A stretch of 29,339 bases of DNA, taken from positions 1 through 29,339 of the IMG/VR virus record IMGVR_UViG_3300047170_000117. One strand, given 5' to 3'. The translations under genes were made by a program, and so were the position numbers. Of the stretch, positions 1,464 through 6,566 are shown piece by piece; the stretch's first letter is position 1; each line of letters opens with the position of its first letter. Under the pieces are notes generated by a model. That model saw only the letters and a program-made list of their open reading frames with translations, ran no database searches and was not told the origin of the DNA. Source of the stretch: a virus.

Positions 1464-1706
1464 ATGTTCGTGAAGCCAGGCCCGAACCGGGCGCTGCCCG
1501 GCACGCTGCTGCGCGTGCGCATTCCGCACACGCTGGCGCTGCTGCCCGACACCGGGGCCGAGGTGCCGGAGAACGGTTTCTGGATCCAGCGGCTGAACCA
1601 GGGCGACGTGGTGCTGGCCGATGCGCCCGCCGCTGAAGCCGCCGCGCCCGCCGCTGAAGCCGCCGCGCCCGCCTTGGCAACGACGGCCGAGGGCGTGGTG
1701 ACGTGA
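1464..1706 (+). CDS. DUF2635 family protein (Mu gp38-like)
   Basis: The 80-residue product starts MFVKPGPNRALPGTLLRV and carries LLPDTGAEVPENGFWIQRL followed by GDVV. This matches the DUF2635 pattern (K-P..G..v..P....Lp..G..Vp....W.rRl..GDV) found in Mu gp38 just upstream of the sheath gene. A purine-rich RBS (ctcggag, 1450-1456) lies ahead of the ATG. The C-terminus is an Ala/Pro/Glu tail made by a duplicated 21-bp unit. The exact role in the tail is not established. The gene overlaps the sheath start by four bases (GTGA). Confidence 0.8.
   Translation: MFVKPGPNRALPGTLLRVRIPHTLALLPDTGAEVPENGFWIQRLNQGDVVLADAPAAEAAAPAAEAAAPALATTAEGVVT
1624..1674 (+). repeat. Two tandem 21-bp units coding an APAAEAA tail
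   Basis: The 21-bp unit gcgcccgccgctgaagccgcc occurs twice in a row, followed by its first 9 bases. It encodes APAAEAA repeated, then APA, at the C-terminus of the DUF2635 protein. Units are identical, which points to recent slippage or duplication. Confidence 0.9.
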
Positions 1707-3244
1707 GCGATTCCATCTACGTTCCGGGCTATCCGAGCAACAACCGGGTTCCGGGTGTTTTCGCATCGGTCGACGCGAGCAAGGCGAACACCGGCACGAT
1801 CAATCAGCGGTCGCTGTTGCTCGGGCAGATGCTGGCGAGCGGCACGGCGACGGCCGGCGTTGGCGTGATTTCCGCCGGCATCGGCGAGGCCCGCACGTCG
1901 TACGGTGTCGGGTCGCAGCTATCGATCATGGTGGAGCGCTATCGCGCGCTCGATCCGGTGGGCGAGCTGTGGTGCCTGCCGCTGGCCGACGCCAGTGGAT
2001 CGGCGGCGGCGACGGGCAGCATCGCGCTGGTCGGCCCGGCGACGGCGGCCGGCGTGATACCGCTGTATGTGAACGGCGCGTATATCCCGGTTGCGGTGAA
2101 TTCCGGCGACAGCGCGACCACGATCGGCGCCAACATGGCGACCGCGATCAACGGTTTCATCACCGCCGGCGGCAACCCGCTTGGCGTCACCGCCACGGCG
2201 GCGACCGGCACGGTGACGCTGACCGCCGCGAACAAGGGGTCGCTGGGCAATCAGGGCACCATCCTGTTGTCCTTCGGCGGCACGTCGCAGGGGCAGGGGC
2301 AGCCCGGCACGACGAACGTGGCGGGTGTGACCGCGACGGTCACGGCGTTTGCGGGCGGCACGACCGACCCGGTTGTCGCGACGGCGCTGGCGAGCCTGCC
2401 GGATCAGCCGTTTGATTTCATCTGCTGCCCGTACAGCGACACGACCTCGCTCAATTCGGTGCAGAGCTTCCTGGGCGATACGGCCGGACGATGGAACTGG
2501 TCGGTGCAGCTTTTCGGCGGTGCTTTCACCGCGCATGGTGGCACGCTGTCCGCGCGCACCACCTGGTCGACCATGCGCAATGACCAGCACGCGAGCGCGA
2601 TCGGCGCCTATGCCTCGCCGTCGCCGGACTGGCACTGGGCGGTGGATTACTGCGCGGCCTCGGCATACAGCCTGCGCACCGATCCGACGATCCCGATCGG
2701 CGGCCTGACCGCCGGCGTGGCGCTGAACGTGCTGGCGCCGGTGCTGGCCAACCGCGACAATTTCGCCTCGCGCCAGACGCTGCTGTTCGACGGCATGACG
2801 ACGTACAAGGTCGATAGCGCCGGCGTGGTGCATGTCGATCGCGCGATCACGACGTATCAGTTCAACGCGCAGAACTCGCCGGACAATTCGTATCTGTCGT
2901 TGAACGTGCCGTACCAGCTTATGGCGTATATCCGCGCCGTCGAGACGATGCTGGGCAGCAATTTCAACCAGGTGAAGTTGGTGGCGGATGGCAGCCGCAT
3001 CCCGCCCGGCTCGGGCATGGTGACGAGCCAGACGATCCTGTACTCGGTGATCGCGCAGTACAAGGCGATGTGCACCACGGGCTTGCCGGGCATTCCGGCG
3101 GGGCTGGTGCAGGAGCCGGACACTTTCGCCGCGAACGCGCAGGCGGAGAACGCCGGCGGCGGCATCGTGAAGCTGTTGCTGCCCGTGCTGCTGGGCAACC
3201 AGTTGATCGCCATCGCGATGAATGTGCAGTTCCAGCAGCCGTGA
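1703..3244 (+). CDS. Contractile tail sheath protein (Mu gpL-like)
   Basis: The 513-residue product is close in length to Mu gpL and begins SDSIYVPGYPSNNRVPGVFASVD, the typical opening of Mu-type sheath proteins (residues that cross-link neighbouring subunits). NQRSLLLGQMLASG follows, and the C-terminal third carries RTDPTIPIGGL, YKVDSAGVVHVDRAITTYQ and a VAIAMNVQFQ-type ending, all usual for the family. It polymerises around the tail tube and contracts on adsorption. The GTG start overlaps the previous stop. Residues about 110-225 form a Gly/Ala/Thr-rich insert that is probably the surface-exposed domain. A heptad array follows the stop, unlike the overlapping junctions upstream. Confidence 0.93.
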   Translation: MSDSIYVPGYPSNNRVPGVFASVDASKANTGTINQRSLLLGQMLASGTATAGVGVISAGIGEARTSYGVGSQLSIMVERYRALDPVGELWCLPLADASGSAAATGSIALVGPATAAGVIPLYVNGAYIPVAVNSGDSATTIGANMATAINGFITAGGNPLGVTATAATGTVTLTAANKGSLGNQGTILLSFGGTSQGQGQPGTTNVAGVTATVTAFAGGTTDPVVATALASLPDQPFDFICCPYSDTTSLNSVQSFLGDTAGRWNWSVQLFGGAFTAHGGTLSARTTWSTMRNDQHASAIGAYASPSPDWHWAVDYCAASAYSLRTDPTIPIGGLTAGVALNVLAPVLANRDNFASRQTLLFDGMTTYKVDSAGVVHVDRAITTYQFNAQNSPDNSYLSLNVPYQLMAYIRAVETMLGSNFNQVKLVADGSRIPPGSGMVTSQTILYSVIAQYKAMCTTGLPGIPAGLVQEPDTFAANAQAENAGGGIVKLLLPVLLGNQLIAIAMNVQFQQP

Positions 3245-3248
3245 GGGA

Positions 3249-3376
3249 GTGATCAGTGGTGACCAGTGATCGGTGACCAGTGATCAGTAGCAAGCAAGAG
3301 TTCGCTCGGATCGCCTTTCTTCCTACTGATCACTGGTCACTGATCACTGATCACCCGCAACGATCACCGATCACTG
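3249..3376. repeat. Heptad array 1: inverted-repeat array of ATCAC-core 7-bp units
   Basis: Left arm 3249-3290 has five GTGATCR-type heptads (two are the variant GTGACCA, with a 3-bp offset after the first). A spacer of about 32 bp follows (caagcaag ... ctttcttcc). Right arm 3323-3354 has four YGATCAC-type heptads (one TGGTCAC), and a further CGATCACCGATCAC pair lies at 3361-3374. The arms are complementary and the variant GTGACCA faces TGGTCAC in the second heptad from the loop, so pairing is kept. The array separates the sheath and tube genes. A short RBS (aggatt) lies between it and the tube ATG. Confidence 0.92.
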
Positions 3377-3390
3377 AATAGGATTCTCAA

Positions 3391-3768
3391 ATGAGCGGAA
3401 CCGCGTCGCGCCGGCTTGCCGGCATTGCGAGCCTGACGATCGACGGCGACGCGTGGGACGTTGTGTCCGATCTGGCGTGGCAATCGACTGTGGTTCAGCG
3501 CGAGACGTTGAAGGGCCAGACCCGGGTCGAGGGCTACAGCGAGATGCCGATGCAGGGGATGATTTCGGCCAAGCTGCGCGACCGGCCGGATGTCGCGGCG
3601 CAGACGCTGAACCTTATCACCAACAGCACGATCGTGGTGCTCCAGGCCAACGGCAAGACGATCTACGGCACCGGCATGTGGAGTGTCGAGTGCGGCGAAG
3701 TGAACACCCAGGAAGGGACGTTTTCGGTGAAATTCGAGGGGCCTGATGTCGATGAGAGCACCGTGTAA
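3391..3768 (+). CDS. Tail tube protein (Mu gpM-like)
   Basis: The 125-residue product matches the Mu-type tail tube family in size and in motifs: an N-terminal GIASLTIDGD followed by QRETLKGQTRVEGYSEMPM and a C-terminal VECGEVNTQEGTFSVKFEGP. These form the beta-sandwich rings that stack into the inner tube through which DNA passes. It lies right after the sheath gene, as in Mu. The RBS (aggatt, about 9 bases before ATG) comes after the heptad array, so translation starts independently of the sheath gene. The stop overlaps the chaperone start (TAATG). Confidence 0.9.
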   Translation: MSGTASRRLAGIASLTIDGDAWDVVSDLAWQSTVVQRETLKGQTRVEGYSEMPMQGMISAKLRDRPDVAAQTLNLITNSTIVVLQANGKTIYGTGMWSVECGEVNTQEGTFSVKFEGPDVDESTV

Positions 3769-4082
3769 TGGCGGAAACCGAGGCCGCGGGGCCGGAGGAC
3801 CAACTGGTGATCGAGATATCGCCGGCGCTGAGTTTCAAGGGCGGCGCGTACGACCAGTTGCGGCTGCATGAGCCGAGCGTGGGGCAGGTGCGCAAGGCGG
3901 AGGGCAGTTTGCGCAACGGCATTCACGCCGAAAGCCTCCGGGTGTACCATATCAATCTGATTGCGGCCGTATCGGGCTGGCCGGTGCCGGCGGTCGAGAT
4001 GATGCCGGTGACGAAGATGAACGAGGCGGCGAACTTTCTCGCGCGTTTTACGATGGCTGGTGCGGAAACTGGCGGGAGCTGA
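3768..4082 (+). CDS. Tail assembly chaperone (Mu gp41-like)
   Basis: The 104-residue product lies between tube and tape measure and has the profile of the gp41/gpE-type tail assembly chaperones: an N-terminal strand pair (LVIEISPALSFKGGAYDQLRLHEPSVGQV), then helices and a C-terminal segment MMPVTKMNEAANFLARF. These chaperones bind the tape measure and recruit tube subunits. The ATG overlaps the tube stop by one base. The -1 frame stays open through the end of this gene and 130 bases beyond, so a longer frameshifted form is likely (see the next entry). Confidence 0.8.
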   Translation: MAETEAAGPEDQLVIEISPALSFKGGAYDQLRLHEPSVGQVRKAEGSLRNGIHAESLRVYHINLIAAVSGWPVPAVEMMPVTKMNEAANFLARFTMAGAETGGS

Positions 4083-4213
4083 GTCCGCAGGTCGGGCGGT
4101 TTTTCGCGGATCCCGGCTGGGCTGAGGGGTTGACCGGCACCGCGCTGGTCTGGTGGGCCGAGAGGGCGAACAGCATGCTGGCCCAGGAGGCAAAGGCGCG
4201 TCGTGGCCGCTGA
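4049..4213 (+). CDS. Probable frameshift extension of the tail chaperone (-1 frame)
   Basis: In the -1 frame relative to the chaperone gene, a frame without stops reads YDGWCGNWRELSPQVGRFFA, then DPGWAEGL, then LVWWAERANSML, and ends at TGA 4211-4213, which overlaps the tape-measure GTG by 11 bases. W..eL followed by W...A is the usual look of the C-terminal half of long tail chaperones (lambda GT, P2 E+E'). I found no ATG, GTG or TTG in this frame between about 3938 and 4130, so access by ribosomal frameshift near the end of the chaperone gene is the natural explanation. I do not see a canonical X-XXY-YYZ heptamer. T-TTT-ACG at 4046-4052 is the nearest candidate. The start given is nominal. 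Confidence 0.55.
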   Translation, partial: YDGWCGNWRELSPQVGRFFADPGWAEGLTGTALVWWAERANSMLAQEAKARRGR

Positions 4214-6566
4214 GAAAAGCGGCGGCTTTTCGATCGTCGTCAAGCTTGTCGACCGTGCGTCGAAGCAGATCGACGCGGTGAACCGGCGGATCGCCGCGAT
4301 CCATGCGCCGGTGCTGCGCATGCAGCGCGCGATGGGCAAGTTCCTGGATGTGTCCGGGCTGCGCGCGGTCGGGCGTGGCTTTGGCAATATCGCGCGGCAC
4401 AGCCTGGAAGCGTTCCAGAGCCTGAGCCGGATGATCGCGCCGCTGGGGGTGATTACCGGGGCGCTGAGCGTGGCCGGCATCGTGCGGATGACCACGGCGT
4501 TCGGGCAGTTCGCGACGACGCTGCAGAACTCGGCGATTCGCGTGGGCATGTCGGCGACGCAGCTTTACACGTTGCAGAACGCCGCCCGGCTGACCGGCTT
4601 GTCGGCCGAGGATTTGACCGCCGGCATGACGACGCTTGGCACGACGATCACGGATGCGATCGGCGGGCGGAACGTCGAAGCGTCGATCTACGCCAATCAG
4701 CTTGGCGTGGCGCTGACCGATGTGACCGGGCATGCGCGCAAGACGACCGACGTGATGCCTGAGCTTGCCGACAAGATCGCCGGCATCCAGGATCCGTTTC
4801 TGCGGGCGCGCGTCGCGGCGGTGTTTTTCGGCGGCGCGGCTGAGAAGATGATGCCGTTCCTGCTGAAGGGATCGGCGGGGATCCACGAGTTTACCGAGGC
4901 CGCCCGCAAATACGGCTACGTCAGCGAACAGGGTGTGCGCGATGGGATCGCGCTTGGGATCAGCTACGGCAAGCTACAGCTTGCGGTCGAGGGTTTCGGC
5001 AACGCGATTTCCGAAAAACTGGCGCCGGTGCTCGGCCCGATCCTGGTGTGGATGGCGGATTGGATCGTCGCGAACCGTGCGTGGATCGCGACGTGGATCG
5101 GCGACAAGGTGGCGGAGCTGCGGGACTATCTGAAGTCGATCAACTGGGATCAGGTCGGCAAGGATATCAAATCCTGGGCGATCCGCGCGAAGGAAGTCGC
5201 GGACGAATTCGGCGGCATCAAGACGGTCGCGGAAGTCGTGGTGGGTTTCATCGCGACGAAGTGGCTGGCCGGGATGCTGAACCCGATCATACAGCTTACC
5301 GCCTCGATCGTGATGCTGATCCGGCTGCTTGCGGTCGGCCTGGTGATGGCTTTTCGGGCGGCTGAAAACGCCGCGCTCGCGCTGAATACGCGCCTGAACA
5401 TGAACCCGGCGTTTCGCACGCTGACGCTGCTGCTTGAGCTTTACGAAAAGATGGATACGCAGGGCGGCACGCCGCTGGGTGATCTGAAGCCGGACGATCC
5501 GCTGTGGAAGACGGTTCCGCCGGACGTGCAGAAGAACTACTCGAATTCGCCGTACAATCAGCCCGGCGGCCCTGGCGCGGATCGGTCCTGGTGGGACCGC
5601 AACATGCCGTCCTGGCTGGGCGGCGGTTACAATCCCGATGCGGGGCAGGCGCCGACGCCGGCGGGGAGCGCGGCGCCGTTGGGTTACGCGGTGCCGGCGG
5701 CGGGCCGCGGCGATATACGCGGTGAGATTGGGCCGGGCGGACCGGCGCCGAACCTGCGCAACAAGGCCGACCAGGATCGCGCGGCGATGATCCGCGACAG
5801 GTTCGCGCGGGATCTGGGTCTGACCAAGGATCAGGCCGCTGGCATCGTCAGTGGGCTGTGGCCGGAAAGCAGGCTGCAGGCGATCAACGAGCTGCACCCG
5901 CTGAAACCGGGCAGCCGGGGCGGCTTTGGCTGGGAACAGGCGACTGGCCCGCGCCGGGACGCGATGGAGCGATACGCCGCCGAGCAGAACCTGCCGCTCG
6001 CGTCGGACGAATTGCAATTTCGCTTCATCGAACACGAGTTGCAGACGAGCCAGGCGAAAGTACTGGCCGACATGCGGCGGCAACGAGGCGCGCTCGACTC
6101 AGCGAGGTCGTTTTTCCCCTTCGAGTCGGGCGGTGCGCCGTCCCTTGCTTGGACCGAGGGTGCACACATCGCGAACGCCGAGCTGATCGCCGGTCTGCCA
6201 AGCCCGCAGGGGCAACCTGGTCCGCAACCGGGACCGCAGGCGCAACCTGGGCCGCAACCGGGACCCGGACCGCAGCCGGGGCCTGGTCCGCAGCCCGGAC
6301 CGCAGGCGCCGGCCGTGCCGGTGGCGGGCAACGACAACGCGAGCAACGACAACCAGGTGGCGCCGCCCGCGGCCGCGCCGGCGGTGAACGTGGCGGGCGG
6401 CAGCGGGAGCCCGGATGCCGGGCAGACGACGACGGTGAAGGGGAGTGCGAACGTGAACGTGAATTTCCGCAATCCCCCGCCGGGTGTGACGACCTCGGCG
6501 AGCACCGAGGGCAATCTGTTTGGGCCGCCGCGGATCGGCATGTCGATGCCGGGGCGCGCGCCATAA
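4203..6566 (+). CDS. Tape measure protein with C-terminal lysozyme-like domain
   Basis: The 787-residue product sits in the tape-measure position and has the expected helical N-terminus (VVKLVDRASKQIDAVNRRI), a mid-protein hydrophobic stretch near residues 345-390 (IIQLTASIVMLIRLLAVGLV), and low-complexity linkers. It sets tail length and is ejected with the DNA. Residues about 529-630 resemble the phage tail lysozyme domain (LTKDQAAGIVSGLWPES, then GFGWEQATGPR and FIEHEL). Glu555 in WPES is the likely catalytic acid, which would let the tail tip cut peptidoglycan. Residues about 667-702 are a PGPQ-rich linker. The start is GTG and overlaps the frameshifted chaperone extension. The lysozyme call is weaker than the tape-measure call because the usual QW motif appears here as GWEQ. 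Confidence 0.85.
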   Translation: MAAEKSGGFSIVVKLVDRASKQIDAVNRRIAAIHAPVLRMQRAMGKFLDVSGLRAVGRGFGNIARHSLEAFQSLSRMIAPLGVITGALSVAGIVRMTTAFGQFATTLQNSAIRVGMSATQLYTLQNAARLTGLSAEDLTAGMTTLGTTITDAIGGRNVEASIYANQLGVALTDVTGHARKTTDVMPELADKIAGIQDPFLRARVAAVFFGGAAEKMMPFLLKGSAGIHEFTEAARKYGYVSEQGVRDGIALGISYGKLQLAVEGFGNAISEKLAPVLGPILVWMADWIVANRAWIATWIGDKVAELRDYLKSINWDQVGKDIKSWAIRAKEVADEFGGIKTVAEVVVGFIATKWLAGMLNPIIQLTASIVMLIRLLAVGLVMAFRAAENAALALNTRLNMNPAFRTLTLLLELYEKMDTQGGTPLGDLKPDDPLWKTVPPDVQKNYSNSPYNQPGGPGADRSWWDRNMPSWLGGGYNPDAGQAPTPAGSAAPLGYAVPAAGRGDIRGEIGPGGPAPNLRNKADQDRAAMIRDRFARDLGLTKDQAAGIVSGLWPESRLQAINELHPLKPGSRGGFGWEQATGPRRDAMERYAAEQNLPLASDELQFRFIEHELQTSQAKVLADMRRQRGALDSARSFFPFESGGAPSLAWTEGAHIANAELIAGLPSPQGQPGPQPGPQAQPGPQPGPGPQPGPGPQPGPQAPAVPVAGNDNASNDNQVAPPAAAPAVNVAGGSGSPDAGQTTTVKGSANVNVNFRNPPPGVTTSASTEGNLFGPPRIGMSMPGRAP

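Follow-up and report, generated by a model that had tools for sequence, protein, structure and literature searches.

A conserved -1 frame extension beyond a tail assembly chaperone gene, and a T_TTT tetramer where relatives carry slip sites, mark the analysed window (a complete IMG/VR virus record of 29,339 bases) as most likely a further member of the known family of frameshifted tail chaperones (lambda G/GT, P2 E/E+E'), with a slip site that has no P-site half. A conserved frameshift in tail genes was reportedly described by Xu, Hendrix and Duda in 2004. We put the probability that a longer form of the chaperone is made in the window by a -1 slip near the gene end, at T_TTT in positions 4046-4049, at roughly 0.9. 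An earlier note on this DNA had offered the same frameshifted-chaperone reading, which is now supported by the position of T_TTT_ACG at the slip position of the relatives and by the conservation of the -1 peptide. The gene belongs to a Mu/P2-type contractile-tail cluster with the order sheath, tube, PF10109 tail assembly chaperone and tape measure, and the features that concern us are:

1703-3244, + strand: tail sheath gene (PF04984, phrog_165).
3391-3768, + strand: tail tube gene (PF10618 Tail_tube, E 2.2e-30).
3768-4082, + strand: tail assembly chaperone, zero frame, 104 aa, gp41/gpE/gpG-like (PF10109 Phage_TAC_7, E 2.3e-9; phrog_166).
4046-4049, + strand: proposed slip tetramer T_TTT, in the zero-frame codons CGT TTT ACG, aligned with the slip sites of relatives.
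4049-4213, + strand: -1 frame extension of 54 codons plus TGA, a P2 gpE'-like domain without its own start.
4050-4132, + strand: region scanned for a downstream stimulatory structure; no non-pseudoknot fold beyond shuffles.
4203-6566, + strand: tape measure gene with a GTG start (phrog_9570, E 3.1e-49; PF18013 lysozyme domain).

The description of PF10109 Phage_TAC_7 reads 'E, or 41 or 14'. The chaperone gene sits between those for the tube and the tape measure, and it is overlapped by an out-of-frame, startless extension that ends near the tape-measure start; both are traits by which the G/GT and E/E+E' chaperones are recognised. Between the sheath and tube genes (3313-3378), a GATCACTG-type unit is repeated in several near-copies.

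Relative to the chaperone, no stop interrupts the -1 frame from 3872 until the TGA at 4211-4213. Read from TAC at 4049 it gives 54 residues, including NWREL and WWAERAN, and the tape-measure GTG at 4203 precedes its stop, for an overlap of 11 nt. The earlier note had described an extension of about 54 residues with W.eL and WWAERAN features that ends just inside the tape-measure gene and has no ATG, GTG or TTG nearby in its frame, and all of this holds: across 3872-4129 of the window none of these codons occurs in the -1 frame, and the earliest, TTG at 4130 and ATG at 4175, both fall within the conserved domain. Openness alone is weak evidence, since in simulations 39% of random coding sequence with the codon use of the tape measure also keeps 43 codons of the -1 frame open; in 9% of codon shuffles, a T_TTT turns up among the final 44 codons of the chaperone. 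That the frame is open by chance has nevertheless a negligible probability and is excluded for practical purposes, because the -1 peptide is conserved as a protein under purifying selection, as tblastn and a leave-clade-out profile indicate.

With tblastn the window peptide finds 17 matches at E <=1e-3 in the fetched loci: the best is L089 (56% identity, E 1.5e-18), and others include L090 (E 3.6e-9) and the Gluconacetobacter locus L009 (E 1.3e-8). Past the chaperone stop, comparison with L089 gives dN 0.32 and dS 1.65 (dN/dS about 0.2) and with L090 dN 0.41 and dS 1.24, ratios that are rough because dS is near saturation. A profile of 139 extensions, built without the window, L089, L090 and L091, ranks the ORF 3872-4213 first among the stop-to-stop ORFs of both window strands (E 4.4e-13; runner-up 0.93). 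Judged from these comparisons, the window extension is a real protein domain under purifying selection. In addition, a profile made from 40 extensions matches the gpE' extension of P2 (probability 96%, E 2.2e-9), and 15 of its 40 members match PF06528 Phage_P2_GpE at E <=0.1 (best 8.5e-6). Conservation as a protein and homology to a known extension are a further trait that marks the G/GT and E/E+E' chaperones.

Relatives were not found in viral contigs with the chaperone alone or the tape measure alone, nor in genome contigs with the window's sheath alone; among named phages, the chaperone search matched only Acetobacter phage phiAP1 and Komagataeibacter phage phiKM1. With six aligned sheaths as the query, 80 loci from bacterial genomes and 80 viral contigs were obtained, and since these are the best 80 of 159 and the best 80 of 577 matches, our survey is a sample of the family. 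Among the matches listed, 155 of the 169 sequences analysed (L001-L168 plus the window) gave profile hits to both domains. Conservation of the -1 frame among relatives, named in the earlier note as a check, is borne out: the extension is open in -1 relation to the chaperone in 154 of these 155 loci, the single exception (+1/-2) being L085, which was excluded from the slip-site count. The figure of 154 is a favoured one, because the extension profile behind it was built from -1 peptides taken from these very loci; tblastn of the window peptide and the leave-clade-out profile are independent of that choice. The 14 sequences dropped because one or both domains were missing (L006, L011, L031, L068, L070, L092, L095, L101, L107, L122, L123, L139, L146 and L165) include Mu (L006), L011, which equals L107 in sequence and has a rearranged chaperone ORF, and several short fragments. 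At L011:5354-7042 the chaperone ORF reads through into roughly 350 in-frame residues of a different sequence, and the profile search found no extension, as if a deletion had taken out the tape-measure start. The phiAP1 chaperone (L001:2629-3279, 216 aa) looks like two tandem chaperone domains, and the window chaperone matches the C-terminal one. ORFs that lie between the tube and chaperone genes at L092:5509-5983 and L093:2092-2902 we take, by eye, to be homing endonuclease-like (GIY-YIG-like and HNH-like).

A conserved upstream start, which the earlier note had named as a finding that would speak against its reading, was looked for and is not seen in the family: among the matches listed, 97 of 154 loci have no ATG, GTG or TTG ahead of the domain in the frame of the extension. 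The lack of a conserved start describes the family as a whole; the distant, Burkholderiales-type L005 and L085 appear to have their own start. There the overlap of extension (L005:5624-5839, L085:5581-5826) and chaperone has no T run, and a GTG follows shortly after the chaperone stop, so that the extension may be a separate protein. For the window, we consider it quite improbable that the extension is a separate small protein made from a non-standard start or by reinitiation, with no frameshift. Such a protein could draw on ATC 3971 and CTG 3977 in the window's -1 frame, and L005 and L085 with their GTG offer a precedent, but the usual start codons are absent upstream of the domain in the window as in those 97 loci, the conserved block of the extension alignment starts exactly at the slip codon, and repeated-base sites recur at the slip position.

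The window overlap has no X_XXY_YYZ heptamer. Its sole T_TTT, at 4046-4049 in the context CTC GCG CGT TTT ACG ATG, sits in the alignment at the switch position where relatives have their slip sites. The earlier note had likewise seen no canonical heptamer and had pointed to T_TTT_ACG at 4046 as the nearest candidate; its description of the site as non-standard is right against the heptamer rule, and goes too far in that U_UU.U is a described -1 tetramer (PMC4066793) and 18 other survey loci have only T_TTT. Because the overlap is without a heptamer, we do not place the site in the heptamer class, in which both tRNAs re-pair; T_TTT has the form of the Z_ZZ.N class, a tetramer in the zero frame that permits cognate re-pairing of one tRNA. 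Among the matches listed, 134 of 154 loci carry an in-frame heptamer at the switch (74 TTTTTTN, 31 GGGTTTN, 15 CCCTTTN, 12 GGGAAAN and 2 AAATTTT), 19 including the window have a bare T_TTT (followed by CAG in 15, by ACC in 3 and by ACG in the window), and one, L005, has neither; removal of identical neighbourhoods leaves 143 sites, 126 with heptamers and 17 tetramer-only. We regard it as very improbable that the frame is shifted by transcriptional slippage on the T run rather than by the ribosome: many relatives do have at least six T (e.g. L001), but the run in the window is of four only, and the GGGAAAC and CCCTTTG sites of other relatives are without a long T run.

The window's nearest neighbours on the sheath tree, L089, L090 and L091, have GGGTTTT, TTTTTTA and GGGTTTT, respectively, and parsimony on this tree places a heptamer at the root, with five heptamer/no-heptamer changes (L005 counted as no heptamer). 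Since tree neighbours and root carry heptamers, the window site is most simply a heptamer minus its P-site half, with the TTT re-pairing kept. The fifteen loci that share GGT TTT CAG (L013, L014, L027, L037, L040, L041, L045, L069, L097, L118, L129, L137, L144, L149 and L166; named genomes among them include Paraburkholderia, Burkholderia and Pandoraea) apparently represent a separate heptamer loss. Alternatively, a heptamer might have been cut to a tetramer in this record through a base-calling error or by recent mutation, in which case the site shown would not be the working one. This explanation overlaps with the slip explanation, touches the slip site only, and is in our view unlikely. The closest relatives do have GGT before TTT where the window has CGT, and a second copy of the stretch was not found in viral contigs; on the other hand, the reading frames and the extension of the window are intact, and the 18 other tetramer-only loci come from other lineages.

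According to the proposed slip, most ribosomes would pass T_TTT and terminate at 4082 to give the 104-residue chaperone, and a minority would slip back one base, with tRNA-Phe moving from TTT 4047-4049 to the identical TTT 4046-4048 and pairing there again, and go on as RF-YDGW to the stop at 4211-4213. The tRNA-Phe would keep all its pairs after the -1 move; the CGT-decoding tRNA would face GCG, where re-pairing would be impossible. Two routes may be envisaged, a P-site tRNA that tolerates mismatches or a slip once translocation has brought Phe into the P site, and they would not be distinguishable, as both would yield RF-YDGW. Imperfect re-pairing is plausible because dnaX variants with single first-position mismatches, at a site other than that of the window, show substantial frameshifting (PMC6787027). 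We infer the occurrence and the rate of slippage in the window from homologous systems. In the lambda model the short form coats the tape measure and the fusion brings in the tube protein (PMC5009743); by analogy, the short form of the window would bind or coat the tape measure and the extension of the fusion would recruit the tube protein.

The window's slip site is shorter, and probably also weaker, than those of most relatives. All 16 Z_ZZ.N tetramers were measured in E. coli by Sharma and colleagues: A_AA.G ranked first, then U_UU.C and U_UU.U, and six tetramer motifs gave 0.26-5.6% frameshifting when a strong pseudoknot was present, whereas tetramers that had none hardly shifted at all (PMC4066793). 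The ratio of short to fused product quoted for lambda, 30:1 (PMC5009743), is one that a stimulated tetramer could attain. The slip explanation is weakest in that no stimulator was found, while the E. coli tetramers needed a strong one: in the window, downstream non-pseudoknot folds are no more stable than in shuffled sequence (z 0.17 over the first 60 nt past the site, 0.54 over 80 nt) and no SD-like 4-mer lies 10-21 nt upstream of the site. Such a 4-mer occurs in that position at 57 of the 143 survey sites among the matches listed. The family mean z just 3' of the site is -0.96, a signal that is not site-specific, as offsets 45 and 60 equal it and offset 180 nearly does. Possibly, though we are rather doubtful, the A-site half U_UUU can suffice: several lineages, the window included, would have lost the P-site half and would slip at a useful rate with no stimulator of the conventional kind; the next codon, the nascent chain or an unrecognised mRNA element might assist.

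With P2 gpE/gpE+E' the window shares the position between tube and tape measure, the -1 frame, an extension that ends just inside the tape-measure gene, and a homologous extension domain; the P2 record carries an annotated -1 frameshift at the corresponding position, where the site reads GGT TTT TTG. The two differ in that P2 has the heptamer T_TTT_TTG and the window only T_TTT, and in that the window's extension, one of the 40 profile members tested, does not match PF06528. In lambda the slip heptamer is G_GGA_AAG, unlike the T_TTT of the window. Lambda gpG/gpGT is likened by arrangement, as a tail chaperone with a minor -1 fusion required for tail assembly (PMC5009743). The Mu gp41 region has the same gene order, and the chaperone Pfam is named for gp41, but the Mu shift is of -2 (PMC5009743); its extension match in the surveyed loci is weak and in the +1/-2 frame. 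The Z_ZZ.N sites of the IS1 and IS3 families resemble the window's in that U_UU.U and U_UU.C are among the tetramers used, and a survey of insertion sequences counted 87 tetramers versus 403 heptamers (PMC4066793); they differ in that the genes are others and that the measured tetramers relied on a strong stimulator, none of which was found in the window. According to the authors of PRFect, most of the annotated frameshift overlaps in their phage set have no heptamer, and other motifs are proposed by them (PMC10885494).

In the portions of the literature on frameshifted tail chaperones available to us, we found no paper on the window's clade or on tetramer-only tail-chaperone sites. For the window alone, the result is ordinary phage biology with an unusual site. 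For the family, the survey brings about 150 more -1 extensions into a classic recoding system in which the extension is unannotated in all six of the annotated phage records with the -1 arrangement that were examined. It also offers, at a single conserved position, a naturally occurring range of slip sites (TTTTTTN, GGGTTTN, CCCTTTN, GGGAAAN, AAATTTT and bare T_TTT), with which the need for the re-pairing of each tRNA could be tested.
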